Shown: positions 1-8,188 of the stretch, in pieces
Position numbering within the stretch: position 1 is the stretch's first letter
How the letters are laid out: each line of letters begins with the position of its first letter
DNA from: Bacillota bacterium
GTDB lineage: Bacteria; Bacillota_C; Negativicutes; Sporomusales; Sporomusaceae
Assembly (NCBI GenBank): GCA_023441125.1
Contig: JAEZQV010000351.1
Span: 1 to 8,188 of the forward strand
Direction: 5' to 3'
Length of the DNA stretch: 8,188 bases
Notes under the pieces: generated by a model
Databases searched by the model: none
Told to the model about the DNA's origin: nothing
Seen by the model: only the letters and a program-made list of their open reading frames with translations
Translations under genes and position numbers: made by a program

Positions 1-419
1 GCCTGGACTTCCTGATCGAAATGATCGGTAAGCCGTCTATTTTCCCGCAATAAACCCTGGTGTTCGGCCACTTTCTCGACAATAATGGATAACTCCTGGA
101 TGTTTATGGGCTTTAGTATGTAGTCAAAGGCTCCCATCCGTAACGCTTCGATCGCCGACTCCATGGAGCCATGGCCGGTAAACAGCACGATATCGGTGTA
201 GGCGCCGCAGGGCAAATCTTTAATATGTTTCAGTAACTCAATACCGGTCATGGATGGCATTTTAATGTCAGTCAGAATCATGGGGAAGCTGCCCTCCAGG
301 AAAACGGTGAGTGCTTCCTTGCCGTCACGGCATTCGGTTACCTGATGCCCCTGTCTGCGCAGGAATTTGCTTACAGGCGTGCGGCTGCCTATGTCGTCAT
401 CTACTAATAAAATATTCAA
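1..419 (-). CDS. Response regulator, receiver domain (partial, probably sigma54-activator type)
   Basis: Reading leftwards from a TTG at 417-419 gives about 139 codons, open at the window edge, so the protein is truncated at its C-terminus. The visible part is a complete CheY-like receiver: it begins NILLVDDD (acidic pocket at residues 7-9), carries the phospho-acceptor D51 in TDIKMP, T81 in FTGHGS and K103 in ILKP. A charged helical linker (VEKVAEHQGLLRENRRL) follows, of the type that joins receivers to AAA+ sigma54-activator domains in NtrC/AtoC/DctD proteins; that output domain is inferred, not seen. The start overlaps the stop of the upstream kinase gene (TTGA), so the two are translationally coupled and almost surely cognate. 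The regulator would be phosphorylated in the cytoplasm by that kinase. The TTG start is chosen because the nearest upstream ATG (424-426) is in another frame and meets a stop after nine codons. Confidence 0.93.
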   Translation of the reverse strand, partial: MNILLVDDDIGSRTPVSKFLRRQGHQVTECRDGKEALTVFLEGSFPMILTDIKMPSMTGIELLKHIKDLPCGAYTDIVLFTGHGSMESAIEALRMGAFDYILKPINIQELSIIVEKVAEHQGLLRENRRLTDHFDQEVQ

Positions 420-3400
420 CTGGCATGATCCTCCTTAACGCTGTCTGCCTCAATTAATGGAAATTCAATCCGGAAGGTGGCGCCGCCGGAATTATTGTTG
501 ATGGCTTTAATTTGGCCGCCATGCGAGGTAATCACTGATTTGACAATCGCCAGCCCCAGTCCCATCCCGGTGCTTTTGGTAGTGAAAAACGGGGTAAACA
601 TCCGCTGCTTGATAACCTCCGGTATACCCGGGCCGTTATCGGAGATTATTACGATAATTTTGTCTTCCAGCCGGGTTTCGATGGTTATCTCTTTCTGTGG
701 CTGCTGAAAATTGGCCAGGGCTTCCTGGGCATTGTTAATCAGGTTGAGCAATACATGCTCCATATGGGCGAGGGAGCCGCACAGCTCCAGCGGGTCATCC
801 AGCATAACCAGCGTCAGGGTAATATTGGCGGCAGCCAGCTGCGGTGTAAGCATATGGGTGGCGTTGGCGATGGCTTTGGTAAGGCTGAATAGCTGATGAT
901 TGGTTTGCTGATTGGTGCGGATCAGGTCGCGGATATATTTAATGATATTGGCTATCCTGGCCGACTGTTCGGAAATGGTTTGGACATCGTCCAGAAATTC
1001 TTCCCAGTGGTAGGTCTGTCCTTCTTTGGCCCATATGAGAATGCTGTCGGCCGTTACTTTAATAGAGTTTAACGGCTGATTGATTTCGTGAGCAATGCCG
1101 GCCGCCATATTGCCCAGGAAAGCCAGTTTTTCCGTTTTGCTGATACGGTTGCGGGCGGCTAACAGTTCATTTTCGGCCTGCTTCCGGTCGGATATATCCC
1201 GGGCGATGCACAGGCCGACAAGTTCACCGTTGAGGGCAAACAGATGGGCGTTGACTTCGGCGGGAACAGTCTGACCGGCTTTGCTTTCCAGTTCCAGTTC
1301 AAAAATGGTTTGCCGCGACGATACCAGTTTTTCCATCCGGCCGGCGGTGGTCGCTTTGCTTTGTTTGGACATGGTCTCCAGCATGGAAAGCGCCAGCAGT
1401 TCTTCGCGGGTATAGCCCAGCCGCCGGCAAGCGATATCATTTACTTCGATGAGTTTTCCCGGCAGCCCCTGCGGGGTAATTTTCCAGACGAAGATGGCAT
1501 CCTGCACACTGTCAAATAATTGCCGGTACCGTTTTTCCACAGCCCTTCTGACAAAAATCTCCTGGGCCAGGGTGGCATTGGCGTTGGCTAGCTGGCGGGA
1601 CTGTTCTTCAACACTCTTTTCCAGACGTTTGTAAGAGTGCTTTAATACCCTGTCGGTGAGCTTTTTGTCATGAACGTCCAGGCAGCAGCCGATAAAGCCG
1701 GCAAAGGTGTTGTCCGGATGATACATGGGAATGCCAATGGCCTGAACCCAGCGATACTCGCCGTTGGCGCCAAGCATGCGGTATTCGTAGTTGAATCTTT
1801 CCTGCCAGCCGCGGGCTTTCTCCAGCGCATACCGGACGAGCTGCCGGTCTTTGGGGTGGACAAACGCCATGCAGTCGATCACCATGCCGCTGCGCCATAC
1901 TTTGCCGGTATATTCCTGCCATTGTTTGTTGACAAAGACACAGTTGCCTTCCCGGTCATCCATCCACAGCAGGATGGGGATGTGGTTAGCCAGATAGCGA
2001 AAGCGCTCCTCGCTTTCCCGCAAGGCTAGCTCAGCTTGTTTGCGTTCGGAAATGTCTCTGGCAATCGCAATGATTTTGGGCGAGTCCCAAAGCTTGCACA
2101 AATGGGAATTAATTTCTACCGGAATGCGGGTGCCGTCTTTGGCAATATGGATAACTTCCTCCAGCGCATGGCCGGATTGCAGCAGCTGTTGCCAGCTCTG
2201 ATCAGCCATGGCCGCGTCCGGCCATGCGGTGATATCCTGAATATACAGCCGCAGCAGTTCGGCCCGCGTGTAGCCCAGCCGTTTGCAGGCATTGTCGTTT
2301 ACCTCTAAAAATGTTACATCTTTAGCTCTTGAGAAAGGCAAAACAAAAATGGCATCATTGCTGCTGTTAAACAGCGACTGATATCTCTCCATGCTCAGCC
2401 GGTAGTTGTTTTCAATCTGACGGCGGACAGTGACATCGCGGATGATGGTCACCACTTCCGTAGCGTTAATGGGCGAAAGCCGGATTTCCAGTACGCTCTG
2501 AGCGGTATCCTGATATTCGCAGGAACGGGCGACCTGAGATTGCAATGTATCCTGAATTTCCTGCAGTATTTTCCCGGCCAGCTCCTGGTCAAACAGCGTG
2601 CTGCTGCTTGGGCCGGCACCGGGGGCTGCTGCGGTGCCGGCAGGCAGTTTGCTGCCGGCAAGGTCTTCCCGCACAATACCGTCTTTATCAACAACCATAA
2701 CCGTGTCGGGGATAGCAGCGATGATGCCCCGCAGCCGGGCTTCCCTTTTGGCCAGATCATGTTCCGCCTGCTTCCGGTCGGTAATATCAATCATGGTGCC
2801 GATGATTGCCGGTTCGCCGTCCAGTTCAATGAAACTGCCATGCACTTCCACATGCCGGATAGCGCCGGCGTAGCATAACCGGACTTCATATTTCACCTGT
2901 TCCTGTTGGCGGGATAGCCTTTTCGCAATATTCGCCCGTACCAGTTCGCGGTCATCCGGGTGGATGTAGTCGTAGATATTTTCAATCGTGTTCACCTTGG
3001 CAGACGCAGGACCGGTAATGGCGGAGACGCCGTGATTTACGTAAGTTAACTTTGTTCCCTGGACGGTATAGATACTGGCCAGGGAATTCTCTATAATCAG
3101 GCGGTAGTTGGCTTCGGCCTGGCGGAGCAGGTTGCTCATGGTGCGATTATGCTGGCAGTGACCGATCAGCCAGTTCAGCAGGATTGTGCCGGTTACGTTG
3201 CCTAAGGTGACGGGAATGAAATAACTGAATAATGCCTCCGGACTGCTGAAAACATGGAAGGTTGCACCGCCATTGTAGGAATGGGCCAATATATATAAGT
3301 TCAGGGAAAAAAGGCAATTGACCAGTGTCACCATGCCCAGACGCCAGCTCGGCCGGTAATCATTGAAGATATTGCGCATTAAGGCGACGATGGGACCCCA

Positions 3401-3748
3401 GCAGGGCGTGCCTGCCGCCCAGGGCACCCAGTCGGTTCCGCCGATGGCCAGCAGGGTGACACTGACCAGCAGACCAACCAGCGCGGCCTCCGAGAGGCCC
3501 ACATATACAGCCGTCAGGATTACGGGCAGCATGCTCAGATTGGCAGTGAAACTTTGGGTCACGAACACAGGGATGACGGAAACCAGGGCCAGAAGTGAGA
3601 ACAGTGCAAACCCCGGCAAATTGGATTCATATTTATGGCGGCACACTGCTGCCGGGAAATGCTTCAGAAACAGGAGAGTTACCATGCCCATGGCTCCAAA
3701 GTTTTCCAGCAGGTGTACCGCGGTAATCGTTAAATCGCTTAGATTCAC
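416..3748 (-). CDS. Multi-PAS membrane sensor histidine kinase
   Basis: Hybrid of a membrane sensor and a cytoplasmic kinase, 1110 residues from a GTG start. Six hydrophobic segments (about 12-29, 46-64, 71-86, 88-104, 137-155, 176-196) resemble the LytS/YhcK 5TM receptor module. Five PAS domains follow (about 213-325, 336-445, 454-572, 579-697, 740-857), several ending in the typical DI[ST][DE]RKQAE linker, with a helical, probably coiled-coil stretch at 698-738. The kinase core has the H-box GIAHEINQPLN with phospho-acceptor H887, N-box asparagines N1002/N1005/N1006, G1 DNGPG (1037-1041), F-box FTPFF (1051-1055) and G2 GMGLG (1061-1065), so it should be active. The H-box is of the HPK4 type, whose members usually pair with NtrC-family regulators. 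The response regulator gene overlaps its 3' end. GTG at 3748 is preferred to the in-frame TTG at 3763 because GAGGTG lies 7 bases before it, whereas the TTG has no such site. PAS2 is divergent, with a Pro/Ala/Gly-rich insert. The ligand is unknown. Confidence 0.95.
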   Translation of the reverse strand: MNLSDLTITAVHLLENFGAMGMVTLLFLKHFPAAVCRHKYESNLPGFALFSLLALVSVIPVFVTQSFTANLSMLPVILTAVYVGLSEAALVGLLVSVTLLAIGGTDWVPWAAGTPCWGPIVALMRNIFNDYRPSWRLGMVTLVNCLFSLNLYILAHSYNGGATFHVFSSPEALFSYFIPVTLGNVTGTILLNWLIGHCQHNRTMSNLLRQAEANYRLIIENSLASIYTVQGTKLTYVNHGVSAITGPASAKVNTIENIYDYIHPDDRELVRANIAKRLSRQQEQVKYEVRLCYAGAIRHVEVHGSFIELDGEPAIIGTMIDITDRKQAEHDLAKREARLRGIIAAIPDTVMVVDKDGIVREDLAGSKLPAGTAAAPGAGPSSSTLFDQELAGKILQEIQDTLQSQVARSCEYQDTAQSVLEIRLSPINATEVVTIIRDVTVRRQIENNYRLSMERYQSLFNSSNDAIFVLPFSRAKDVTFLEVNDNACKRLGYTRAELLRLYIQDITAWPDAAMADQSWQQLLQSGHALEEVIHIAKDGTRIPVEINSHLCKLWDSPKIIAIARDISERKQAELALRESEERFRYLANHIPILLWMDDREGNCVFVNKQWQEYTGKVWRSGMVIDCMAFVHPKDRQLVRYALEKARGWQERFNYEYRMLGANGEYRWVQAIGIPMYHPDNTFAGFIGCCLDVHDKKLTDRVLKHSYKRLEKSVEEQSRQLANANATLAQEIFVRRAVEKRYRQLFDSVQDAIFVWKITPQGLPGKLIEVNDIACRRLGYTREELLALSMLETMSKQSKATTAGRMEKLVSSRQTIFELELESKAGQTVPAEVNAHLFALNGELVGLCIARDISDRKQAENELLAARNRISKTEKLAFLGNMAAGIAHEINQPLNSIKVTADSILIWAKEGQTYHWEEFLDDVQTISEQSARIANIIKYIRDLIRTNQQTNHQLFSLTKAIANATHMLTPQLAAANITLTLVMLDDPLELCGSLAHMEHVLLNLINNAQEALANFQQPQKEITIETRLEDKIIVIISDNGPGIPEVIKQRMFTPFFTTKSTGMGLGLAIVKSVITSHGGQIKAINNNSGGATFRIEFPLIEADSVKEDHAS
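430..436 (-). promoter_or_regulatory. Ribosome binding site of the response regulator
   Basis: On the minus strand AAGGAGG lies inside the last codons of the kinase gene, 10 bases before the TTG start of the response regulator. It supports the unusual TTG start and translational coupling. Confidence 0.75.
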
Positions 3749-3755
3749 GCCTAAA

Positions 3756-3761
3756 CACCTC
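3756..3761 (-). promoter_or_regulatory. Ribosome binding site of the kinase, deciding a GTG start
   Basis: GAGGTG on the minus strand sits 7 bases before GTG 3746-3748. It overlaps the longer in-frame alternative start TTG (3761-3763), which has no purine-rich site upstream. Confidence 0.6.
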
Positions 3762-3865
3762 AATATGTTATTCGCTGTTAAGGAGCATTAATCCTTGAAA
3801 TAATTGTTAGATACCGTCATATTTGCTGCGCGATGCAGCTCTACCGGCCGATGTCGGAACCTGCC

Positions 3866-3985: not shown

Positions 3986-3990
3986 AGGTG
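3986..3990 (+). promoter_or_regulatory. Ribosome binding site of the chemosensor gene
   Basis: AGGTG lies 4 bases before a first ATG (3995) and 7 bases before a second, adjacent ATG (3998). The longer spacing favours the second ATG. Confidence 0.6.
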
Positions 3991-3997
3991 ATTAATG

Positions 3998-5911
3998 ATG
4001 AGCAAGGATGTTCTGTTAACCCGGGAAGAACTATGTGCCGGCTGTAACAAGTGTATAGCCAAATGTCCGACCAAAGCCAACATAGCTTATGATCTCAACG
4101 GCCAAAACAAGGTCAGGGTTGACCAAACGCGCTGTATTCACTGTGGTGAGTGCCTGGAAGTCTGCGATCATAAGGCCAGGGATTTCGCCGACGATACTGA
4201 GCAGTTTTTTGCCGATCTTAAGCAAGGTGTCAAAATATCGGTGCTGGCCGCACCTGCCATCCGGTTTAATTTTAACAATTATAAACGGCTGTTCGGCTAC
4301 CTGAAATCATTGGGCGTCAAGCTTATCTATGATGTCTCGTTCGGAGCCGACATTACCACCTGGGCGTATTTGAAAGCCATTAAAGAACAGCAGCTGAATT
4401 CAGTGATTGCGCAGCCCTGTCCGGCCATTGTCAACTATGCTCAGAAATTCCGCCCGGAGCTCATAAAAAAATTGGCACCCATCCATAGTCCCATGCTGTG
4501 CACGGCTGTTTATCTGCGAAAATATGAGAACGTGCAGGACAAACTGGCTTTCTTGTCACCCTGTATCGGTAAAATTGATGAAATTAATGAAAAGGATACC
4601 GCCGGCTTGGTGCAATATAATGTAACCTATGCCAAACTGGCGGAATATCTGGAACAAAACGGCGTTACTCTGGCCGGTTATCAGGAAGCCGATTTTGATG
4701 ATGACGGCTGTGGTCTGGGATTGGCCTTCAGCCGGCCGGGCGGGCTTAGGGAAAATGTGGAGTTTCATACGCAGGATGCCTGGATCCGGCAGATCGAAGG
4801 TCCCGGACATGTATACCATTATCTGGATGATTATGCCAAACGGGTCCGGGACGGCAAACCCGTTCCGCTGCTGGTGGATGTGCTGAATTGTTTGTGCGGC
4901 TGCAATATTGGGACAGGTACCCAGAAAGCGATTGCAATTGATGATATTGATTGCCGGATGAATGCTTTGAAACAGGATAAAATCAAAGAGCAAACCAAGC
5001 ATAAAGTATTTAAGAAGACCTATGCCTTGTTTGACCGCTTTGATAAAGAATTGAACCTGGCCGACTTTGTCCGGCGGTATGAAGATAAGTCGGTGACCCG
5101 GAATACCGTTTCGGCCACTGACCTGGAAACGGTTTTCCACAACCTGCACAAGACCACCGAGACTTCGCGCCAGGTGAACTGTTATGCCTGCGGCTTTGGC
5201 AACTGTAGGGAGTTTGCCACTGCTGTGGCGCAAGGCATCAATCATGTGGAAAACTGTATTGACTATAACCGCAAAGAAGTAGAAGCCGAGAAGGAAATAC
5301 TGGCCAAAACCAATACAGAAGTCCAGGGGATGCTGACCCAGGTCAAAACACTGGCCGACGAACGCGAGCAAACAGCCCGGATGCTGCATGACCGGGTAAA
5401 AGATATCACCGACGCCATCAATGAAGTCTCGTACGGCAGCGGTGACAATGCCAAAAGCATCGAGAAAATCAGTGAGGAAGTGCACTATATCCTCAAGACT
5501 GCCATTGAGCTCCGCGAGAGTGTGCGGGAGGTCGAAGCCAAGCTAAGAGACTTCTCCCATGCCTCGGACGAAATCGTGGGGATCGCCGGCCAGACCAATC
5601 TGCTGTCTTTAAATGCCACTATTGAGGCGGCCCGCGCCGGCGAACTGGGCAAAGGCTTTGCCGTGGTGGCCAACGAAGTCCGAATTCTGGCCGACAGATC
5701 CAAAACGGCAGTCACTTCCACCAAGAACAGTGAAGCGGAGATTAGAAACCAGATAACTAAGATTATTACTATCTCCGATGACCTGGAGAGGAAGATGGAT
5801 ACCGTTAACAGTGAAATTACCAATATTTCAGCGACCGTTCAGGAGGTAACCGCCAAATGCCAGGAAATTGCCGCAACGGCGGCTATGCTGGAACAGCGGC
5901 AGCTGCAATGA
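3998..5911 (+). CDS. [FeFe]-hydrogenase-like sensor fused to a chemoreceptor signalling domain
   Basis: Soluble 637-residue fusion with no membrane segment or signal peptide. Order: a 2[4Fe-4S] ferredoxin module (C13/C16/C19/C23 and C46/C49/C52/C56); an H-cluster domain (about 78-315) with L1-like QPCPAIV (C141), L2-like SPCIGKIDE (C189, K192, E195) and L3-like NCLCGC (C298, C302); a four-cysteine Fe-S module CYACGFGNC plus a distal Cys (C395/C398/C403/C420); a helical region; then an MCP signalling hairpin (about 519-570, [20 protein letters not shown], then [13 protein letters not shown]) and a C-terminal helix. All four protein ligands of the H-cluster are present, but the cysteine that relays protons in catalytic enzymes is P140. 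Such substitutions are known in putative sensory [FeFe]-hydrogenases (groups C and D). It probably passes an H2 or redox signal to CheA/CheW in the cytoplasm. It is divergent from the kinase operon. The alternative start ATG 3995 adds one residue. Maturation genes are not in the window, so an assembled H-cluster is not proven. Confidence 0.92.
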
Positions 5912-6322: not shown

Positions 6323-7615
6323 ATGGAGACGCTGAATTTTAAGTATTCGCTTGAGCAGAAGCTGCCTATCCGGGATTTGCTGCTTTTTGGACTGCAGTGG
6401 TTTCTGGTAATAGTACCCTTTATTATTATTCTGGGCTCGGTTGTTGGTGCTCATGATCACGCCGGTTCACCGGCGCTGCAGTTGAAATATTTGCAAAAAG
6501 TATTCCTGGCTACCGGCCTGACCCTGTTAATTCAGGTCTTCCGGGGGCACCGCCTGCCGCTGATTGTCGGTCCGGCCGCCGTGCTGCTCAGCGGTATCCT
6601 GGCCAATCAGGGCGAGGCTGCAGCCGGTTCGACCTATTTATCCATTACCTTGTGCGGCCTGTTGCTGGCCGGCTTAAGCGCCGGCAACCTGTTAACCCGG
6701 ATCAACAGACTGTTTACAGTCCGGATTGTGGCCATCGTCCTGTTACTCATCGCTTTCACCATGATACCCACGATTCTTAATCTGATTATGGCTGGAGCCC
6801 AGCAGCCGTTTACGCAGTTTGTGTTTGTGCTGGCCATGATTGGGGCTTTGCTGCTTGGTCAGCGGCTGCTGCCGGCGGCTCAAAAATCCACGATGATTAT
6901 TTGGGCGCTGATTTTGGGCAGCCTGGCCTATCATGGCTTGGTCGCCGGTACGTGGCCGCAGCGGGCTGCCGCTCTCCCGGAAGCCGGTGACTGGCAGCTG
7001 GCCGTCGCTGCTTTTCACTTTGACCCGGTTATTTTCGTTACCTTCCTGTTCTGCTTTCTGGCCCTGACCGCCAACGATCTGGGTTCTATCCAAAGCACCG
7101 CAGGCCTGCTGCAGGTGGACAACACTGAAAAGCGCAGCAGCACCGGCCTGTTCTTTACCGGCGTCGGCAATGTGCTCGCCGGTTGCCTGGGAGTTATCGG
7201 TCCGGTTAATTATTCCTTCAGTGGCGGTATTATCCTGGCAACCGGCTGTGCATCCCGGCTGCCGCTGGCTGTGGCTGCCGGCGGCATGCTGCTGGTGGCC
7301 TTTATGCCGGGATTGATTGGTATGTTTGCTTATGTCCCGTCGGTCGTAACCGGCGGCCTCCTGTTCTACACGATGTGTCTGCAGGCCTCGGCCGGCCTGA
7401 TGATGCTGGGCCCGTCGCTGGCTGCCGAGAATGCCTTGGAAACCGGGCTGATGCTTGGCGTTTCCCTGATGTTTGGCATCTTGGCCGCCTTTTTGCCGGG
7501 CAATTTGGCAGCAGCCATTCCGCCGGTCGTCAGGCCGCTCTTAACAAACGGCTTTGTGATGGGTGTTACGATGGCGCTCATTATGGAACATCTGCTGTAC
7601 CCCCGGAGAAACTGA
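6323..7615 (+). CDS. NCS2-family (solute carrier 23) nucleobase-type permease
   Basis: A 430-residue polytopic protein with about 12-14 hydrophobic segments across its length, the usual size for the nucleobase:cation symporter-2 family of uracil, xanthine, guanine and urate transporters. Family features by position are a TM1 region near 18-40, the TM8 block ALTANDLGSIQST (247-259), and the TM10 block followed by GGIILATGCASR (301-312), which corresponds to the family's G-x-I/V-ALT-x-V-ASR stretch. Aligned by eye with E. coli UraA, the TM8 glutamate (E241) falls on N251, H245 on S255, and the TM10 glutamate (E290) on F299. The usual polar substrate and cation site is therefore altered, and substrate cannot be assigned. 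D252 beside N251 might take over. It would act in the cytoplasmic membrane. It stands as a single gene with its own terminator; no purine or pyrimidine gene is adjacent. Confidence 0.85.
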   Translation: METLNFKYSLEQKLPIRDLLLFGLQWFLVIVPFIIILGSVVGAHDHAGSPALQLKYLQKVFLATGLTLLIQVFRGHRLPLIVGPAAVLLSGILANQGEAAAGSTYLSITLCGLLLAGLSAGNLLTRINRLFTVRIVAIVLLLIAFTMIPTILNLIMAGAQQPFTQFVFVLAMIGALLLGQRLLPAAQKSTMIIWALILGSLAYHGLVAGTWPQRAAALPEAGDWQLAVAAFHFDPVIFVTFLFCFLALTANDLGSIQSTAGLLQVDNTEKRSSTGLFFTGVGNVLAGCLGVIGPVNYSFSGGIILATGCASRLPLAVAAGGMLLVAFMPGLIGMFAYVPSVVTGGLLFYTMCLQASAGLMMLGPSLAAENALETGLMLGVSLMFGILAAFLPGNLAAAIPPVVRPLLTNGFVMGVTMALIMEHLLYPRRN

Positions 7616-7664: not shown

Positions 7665-8188
7665 TTACCGGCATTGTTTCACAAAGCGCCTGATCCGTTC
7701 CAACGCTTCCGTCAGGTTGCTTATTGAGGAAGCATACGAGCAGCGGATGAAACCCTCACCGCTCTCACCAAAAGCATCGCCGGGAACAACCGCCACTTTC
7801 TCGGTTTTAAGCAGTTCTTCGGCGAACCGGAGCGATGTCAGTCCGGTTTCTTTAATAGAAGGAAAGATGTAAAATGCGCCCTTGGGTTCAAAGCAGCGGG
7901 CGCCAATGCTGCGCAGGCCGTCAAGCATCAATTGGCGGCGGCCGTTGTACTCGGCCACCATTTTTTCCATCTTGTCTTTGCCATGCCGGAGGGCTTCAAT
8001 GGCGCCCAACTGCGCGGTTATGGGAGCACACAGCATAGTATACTGATGAATTTTGTTCATGGCGGCAATGAAGTCGGGATTGGACAGGGCGTAGCCAATG
8101 CGCCAGCCGGTCATGGCATACGCCTTGGAGAACCCGTTAAGCAAAATGGTGCGGTCCCGCATGCCGGGCAGGCCGGCAAAACAGGTAT
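7665..8188 (-). CDS. Class I PLP-dependent aminotransferase, C-terminal part
   Basis: The gene enters from the right edge and ends at TAA 7665-7667; 173 residues are visible, so the N-terminal half is missing. The cofactor lysine lies in NGFSKAYAMTGWRIGY (codon 8124-8126); the Arg in TGWRIGY contacts the PLP phosphate in this fold. Near the C-terminus GFIRCSYASS holds the Arg that binds the substrate alpha-carboxylate. The stretch GAFYIFPSI and the overall pattern fit the aspartate-aminotransferase-like AspB/PatA branch (class I, subgroup gamma) found widely in Firmicutes. It would move an amino group between an amino acid and a 2-oxo acid in the cytoplasm; the exact substrate cannot be read from this part. 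No frameshift is seen. Confidence 0.93.
   Translation of the reverse strand, partial: TCFAGLPGMRDRTILLNGFSKAYAMTGWRIGYALSNPDFIAAMNKIHQYTMLCAPITAQLGAIEALRHGKDKMEKMVAEYNGRRQLMLDGLRSIGARCFEPKGAFYIFPSIKETGLTSLRFAEELLKTEKVAVVPGDAFGESGEGFIRCSYASSISNLTEALERIRRFVKQCR

Follow-up and report, generated by a model that had tools for sequence, protein, structure and literature searches.

Sensory [FeFe]-hydrogenases and a probable chemoreceptor of the Sporomusaceae

Among the [FeFe]-hydrogenases classified in HydDB, subgroup C2 is labelled 'Chemotactic (putative)', and the table there leaves its role undetermined while suggesting that its members may sense H2 and act via methyl-accepting chemotaxis proteins (MCPs) (PMC5037454). 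Two other kinds of sensory enzyme invite comparison with the protein described here. In the group C (M2f) proteins TmHydS and RaHydS a three-part iron-sulphur (Fe-S) layout precedes the output (PMC10055695), and in the group D (M2e) protein TamHydS of Thermoanaerobacter mathranii two N-terminal clusters and the H-domain are followed by a Cx2Cx4Cx16C motif (PMC8163306, PMC13104023), TamHydS having no MCP or PAS output. The 8,188-nucleotide stretch analysed here, contig JAEZQV010000351.1 of assembly GCA_023441125.1 from a Bacillota bacterium of the family Sporomusaceae (hereafter the window), contains a gene for a 637-residue protein (P0001) in which a comparable layout leads directly into an MCP signalling domain. 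This protein is probably a soluble cytoplasmic chemoreceptor with a sensory [FeFe]-hydrogenase as its input, steering the cell by H2 or by redox state. Its domain pairing fits the putative MCP-linked H2 sensors of C2, a class that HydDB defines by a sequence network.

As the original prediction had proposed, Pfam and hydropathy place a ferredoxin module, an H-domain, a four-cysteine Fe-S module and an MCP hairpin on a single soluble polypeptide, and the four H-cluster cysteines it named (C141, C189, C298 and C302) are the right ones, present in 74/74 aligned sequences. A membrane receptor was rejected, as the hydropathy profile holds no stretch fit for a membrane span. The second cysteine set of the ferredoxin-like module is kept throughout the alignment (74/74) and the first in 72-73/74, while in the C-terminal module three cysteines are present in all 74 sequences and C420 in 73. 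The APA and GAD motifs and the L2 lysine of the H-domain are likewise retained. The fold comparison (VIA-align list), which matches [FeFe]-hydrogenases, spans mainly residues 1-369 and barely covers the C-terminal module and the hairpin. The MCP signalling domain (residues 507-628) is recognised as PF00015 at E 3e-27, and in an AlphaFold2 model two long helices meet at residue 547 to form an antiparallel hairpin, whose tip is identical to that of an ordinary MCP (at locus L010) at 34/55 residues over the segment 522-576. The Pfam scan of P0001 found no HAMP or PAS family between the C-terminal Fe-S module and the MCP helix.

Class of the H-domain

The glutamates of the group A stretch TIMEExxE are proton carriers in the catalytic enzyme CpI; in the window protein this stretch is aligned to TTWAYL and a gap. 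The proton-transfer cysteine of CpI (C299), mostly lost from sensory groups C and D, corresponds to Pro140, and proline occupies the position in 74/74 aligned sequences; among the sensory sequences of HydDB about 10% have proline there (PMC10055695). The Cx2Cx4Cx16C module, reported as the motif that follows the H-domain in groups C and D (PMC8163306), is common to the clade of the window protein and the C- and D-type rows of our alignment, and the A and B rows lack it. Serine and leucine stand at the M353 and M497 positions, as they do in TamHydS (PMC8163306). Because of these four features the protein looks suited to sensing rather than to fast turnover. Group A rows, of the catalytic kind represented by CbA5H and CpI, differ in having the L1 cysteine and the acidic stretch and in lacking both the C-terminal Fe-S module and the MCP domain.

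In a tree of 58 H-domains, P0001 falls within a clade of 37 rows with support of 100/100, which we call the QPC clade; its rows are 32 of 57 family rows, hand-picked for spread, together with P0001 and four listed proteins. Domain layout and motifs served to sort the reference rows into groups A, B, C and D. The protein at L062 is presumably RaHydS, judging from its locus, and of the rows labelled C, L058 gives a weak PAS match and L057 none at 1e-4. Support for joining the QPC clade to the C- and D-type rows is 94/85 (branch not starred), and the clade is separate from A and B, in agreement with the earlier assignment of a sensory-type H-domain. Five D-type rows, TamHydS not among them, form their own 100/100 clade beside it and read SSAC where the QPC clade reads QPC; in this tree the window protein lies outside these rows. 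The L1 motif of the three C-type rows is SSCC, TmHydS having alanine there (PMC10055695). TmHydS and RaHydS carry a PAS domain where the window protein has its MCP helix, and the C-type rows form a separate clade. A PAS domain after the Fe-S module distinguishes group C (M2f), and Pfam finds none in P0001, which by this layout is therefore not group C proper.

Exchange of outputs and association with CheA

Relatives within the QPC clade carry the same sensor on other outputs: GGDEF, GGDEF-EAL, SpoIIE, HisKA-HATPase, PAS-GAF-HisKA, or Hpt with HATPase and CheX. At least 7 changes of output fall on the 37-row tree, and this pattern supports the view of the sensor as a self-contained input module. 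Output types were taken from local phmmer comparisons of the 57 distinct family rows, with a Pfam check of 20 proteins (17 of the family and three group C- or D-type references); rows at L075, L110, L114 and L116 that had no phmmer output were resolved by Pfam, L105_1_1365 is truncated where its locus ends, and a 691-residue piece at L052, in which Pfam found no output family, is left out of all counts. We propose, tentatively and as something that may well prove wrong, that the QPC clade forms a sensory group of its own outside C and D, an exchangeable H2 or redox input for taxis, cyclic di-GMP (c-di-GMP), phosphatase and kinase outputs, which would signal via the helix at the last cluster ligand without that cluster being reduced.

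Several variants were seen in passing. The sensor with Hpt, HATPase and CheX is one 1150-residue protein (L047:3207-6659), from the genome behind the Desulfosporosinus locus L005. Two short forms (L008:9977-11620, 547 residues; L006:80-1702, 540 residues) have a C-terminal part about 90 residues shorter than that of the window protein, and at G634:C4:52277-56140 (L105, L115) two clade genes are adjacent on the same strand.

Carriers of the clade were sought in 300 genomes of Negativicutes, the class of Sporomusa, and in 391 of Clostridia, the class of a Clostridiaceae relative, by similarity to P0001 at E 1e-90 and 1e-80 respectively, which biases the sample to closer kin; 27 and 18 carriers were found. 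CheA, scored through the H-kinase_dim family at 1e-5, is present in 22/27 Negativicutes and 18/18 Clostridia carriers. All 31 genomes with an MCP version encode CheA, as do 9 of the 14 that hold other outputs only, the five carriers without it having GGDEF (1), GGDEF-EAL (3) or SpoIIE (1) versions. The association of MCP output with CheA has a Fisher p of 0.002 when genomes are treated as independent, which they are not. In Sporomusa acidovorans (L002) a cheY-cheA-cheW-MCP-cheR-cheB cluster begins about 3.1 kb downstream of the receptor gene.

Maturases and the evidence against hydrogen sensing

The original prediction had looked to the genome for the maturases of the H-cluster. Among close kin this expectation stood, with HydF in 7/7 searched genomes behind related loci, three of them Sporomusa (five of the seven are also among the 45 carriers). 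Every Negativicutes carrier has HydF (27/27, against 222/300 of all Negativicutes sampled), and the total is 38/45 carriers at a cut-off of 1e-80. For the Clostridia it did not stand, HydF being undetected in 7/18 carriers, and a strict dependence on maturases across the family was not upheld.

Several observations weigh against a receptor for H2 in swimming cells. HydF in the Clostridia carriers (11/18 at cut-offs of 1e-80 and 1e-40 alike) is not more frequent than in the remaining genomes (251/373; 262/391 overall). In the seven carriers without it, HydG gave no match at 1e-30 in five and matches below the cut-off in two (G387 and G622), HydE not having been searched. Four cysteines are no proof of a [2Fe] subcluster. 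The other open reading frames of the window that were scanned with Pfam include no hydrogenase or che genes, and of eight loci read only that of S. acidovorans has a che cluster. A study of Clostridium acetogens dropped its own HydDB C2 hits after extra checks (PMC9431212), and a C2 label can therefore sometimes mislead.

All seven HydF-less carriers (G305, G387, G475, G505, G622, G670 and G687) also encode a catalytic-looking [FeFe]-hydrogenase with L1, L2 and L3 intact, and the gap may thus reflect assemblies, models or biology. The maturase evidence is good for the window protein's own kin (7/7 genomes) and, given the gap in the Clostridia carriers, mixed for the wider family.

Proposed mechanism and alternatives

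In the mechanism that we favour, H2, presumably the ligand, or a low-potential redox state of the cell would alter the state of an H-cluster that is probably occupied, the H-cluster and the N-terminal clusters being poised to it. Turnover would be slow and the reduced state would persist, because the proton-transfer cysteine and the acidic residues of catalytic enzymes are absent. A shift in the H-domain would displace the C-terminal Fe-S module, whose Cys420 stands immediately before an unbroken helix of 126 residues; the MCP hairpin would re-pack, CheA activity would change and swimming would change with it. Electron flow from the H-cluster through the Fe-S clusters to the signal, as first envisaged, is not supported in that form: the TamHydS cluster of the same motif was reportedly not reduced under H2 (PMC13104023). 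Given this result, and given that C420 directly precedes helix 421-546, we infer that the C-terminal module more probably acts as a mechanical joint than as an electron wire.

A less likely competitor is a general redox or Fe-S chemoreceptor, in which the H-domain retains no more than a [4Fe-4S] cluster, or in which ferredoxin potential or O2 damage, rather than H2, drives the H-cluster via the N-terminal clusters. The loss of the proton-transfer residues, the invariance or near-invariance of the N-terminal clusters and the failure to detect HydF in 7/18 Clostridia carriers would all suit such a receptor. Yet because the same seven genomes hold catalytic-looking hydrogenases, HydF loss does not single out this clade, and both the retained L2 lysine, APA and GAD motifs and the unbroken presence of HydF in Negativicutes carriers speak against this reading. 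Less probable again is an MCP part that signals into an alternative CheA pathway, for biofilm, development or gene control, instead of flagellar taxis: the occurrence of the same sensor on c-di-GMP enzymes, SpoIIE phosphatase and kinases suggests roles outside swimming, but the hairpin tip resembles that of an ordinary MCP, and the genes near the S. acidovorans receptor are those of a cheY-A-W-MCP-R-B cluster. That the protein is a metabolic hydrogenase which gained its MCP tail by accident is scarcely credible, for although the H-domain and ferredoxin module resemble those of catalytic enzymes in fold, the MCP domain is present in 120/120 homologues among the matches listed, and the invariant proline together with the separation from group A and B rows led us to reject a catalytic role. 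A chance fusion or assembly join was rejected on the same co-occurrence of both domains.

Features of the gene and its neighbourhood

Coordinates of the receptor gene and its parts are collected in Table 1; a ribosome-binding-site-like AGGTGA lies ahead of the gene at 3986-3991.

Table 1. Features of the H-domain chemoreceptor gene, in window positions
Feature	Position	Strand	Basis
Whole gene, H-domain chemoreceptor, 637 aa	3998..5911	+	Open reading frame and Pfam
Ferredoxin-like module, two four-cysteine motifs (C13 C16 C19 C23; C46 C49 C52 C56)	4025..4177	+	Pfam Fer4 families, residues 10-60
[FeFe]-hydrogenase H-domain, residues 79-305	4232..4912	+	PF02906 E 5e-28; fold match to [FeFe]-hydrogenases
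L1 motif QPCP (139-142): H-cluster Cys141, Pro at proton-transfer Cys position	4412..4423	+	Q, P, C in 74/74
L2 motif SPCxxK (187-192): Cys189, Lys192	4556..4573	+	C 74/74, K 73/74
L3 motif LNCxxGC (296-302): Cys298, Cys302	4883..4903	+	Both Cys 74/74
C-terminal [4Fe-4S]-type module Cx2Cx4Cx16C (C395, C398, C403, C420)	5180..5257	+	PF04060, residues 392-421
Ascending MCP helix of roughly 18 heptads, residues 421-546, begins directly after Cys420	5258..5635	+	AlphaFold2 model
Hairpin tip region, residues 532-564	5591..5689	+	Similarity to ordinary MCP
Descending MCP helix, residues 548-636	5639..5905	+	AlphaFold2 model
One methylation-like site, residues 618-627	5849..5878	+	Consensus-like pattern only

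There is no operon link to hydrogenase genes in the window, and the neighbours vary among the three Sporomusa loci read. Divergent from the receptor gene is a histidine kinase (416-3763, minus strand) with a 5TM-5TMR_LYT and several PAS matches, accompanied by a response regulator that is truncated at the end of the window (3-419, minus strand); S. acidovorans has a similar pair in the same place, its regulator bearing a sigma-54 activator domain. On the other side lie an NCS2-type xanthine/uracil permease (6323-7615, plus strand) and the end of a pyridoxal phosphate-dependent aminotransferase (7665-8186, minus strand). In S. silvacetica the gene directly after that of the receptor (L001:11860-13215) encodes a permease from this Pfam family, and open reading frames near the receptor genes at L002 (12311-13477) and L007 (18817-19983) resemble the same aminotransferase by eye.

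Significance

The MCP-linked class of [FeFe]-hydrogenase is already predicted in HydDB as C2. Judged by titles and abstract openings, in literature of which subscription papers are mostly outside the coverage, we recognised no experimental study of an [FeFe]-hydrogenase linked to an MCP or a diguanylate cyclase. The useful new facts are the QPC clade, the exchange of its outputs and its association with CheA. H2 taxis has been studied in Methanococcus; to our knowledge the receptor-level basis on which anaerobes find or avoid H2 is mostly open. With an H-domain built into a soluble receptor, H2 sensing by anaerobes would become testable on a purified protein, and the natural fusions of one sensor to MCP, GGDEF, SpoIIE and kinase outputs would make signal transmission by sensory [FeFe]-hydrogenases approachable by comparison and by domain exchange.
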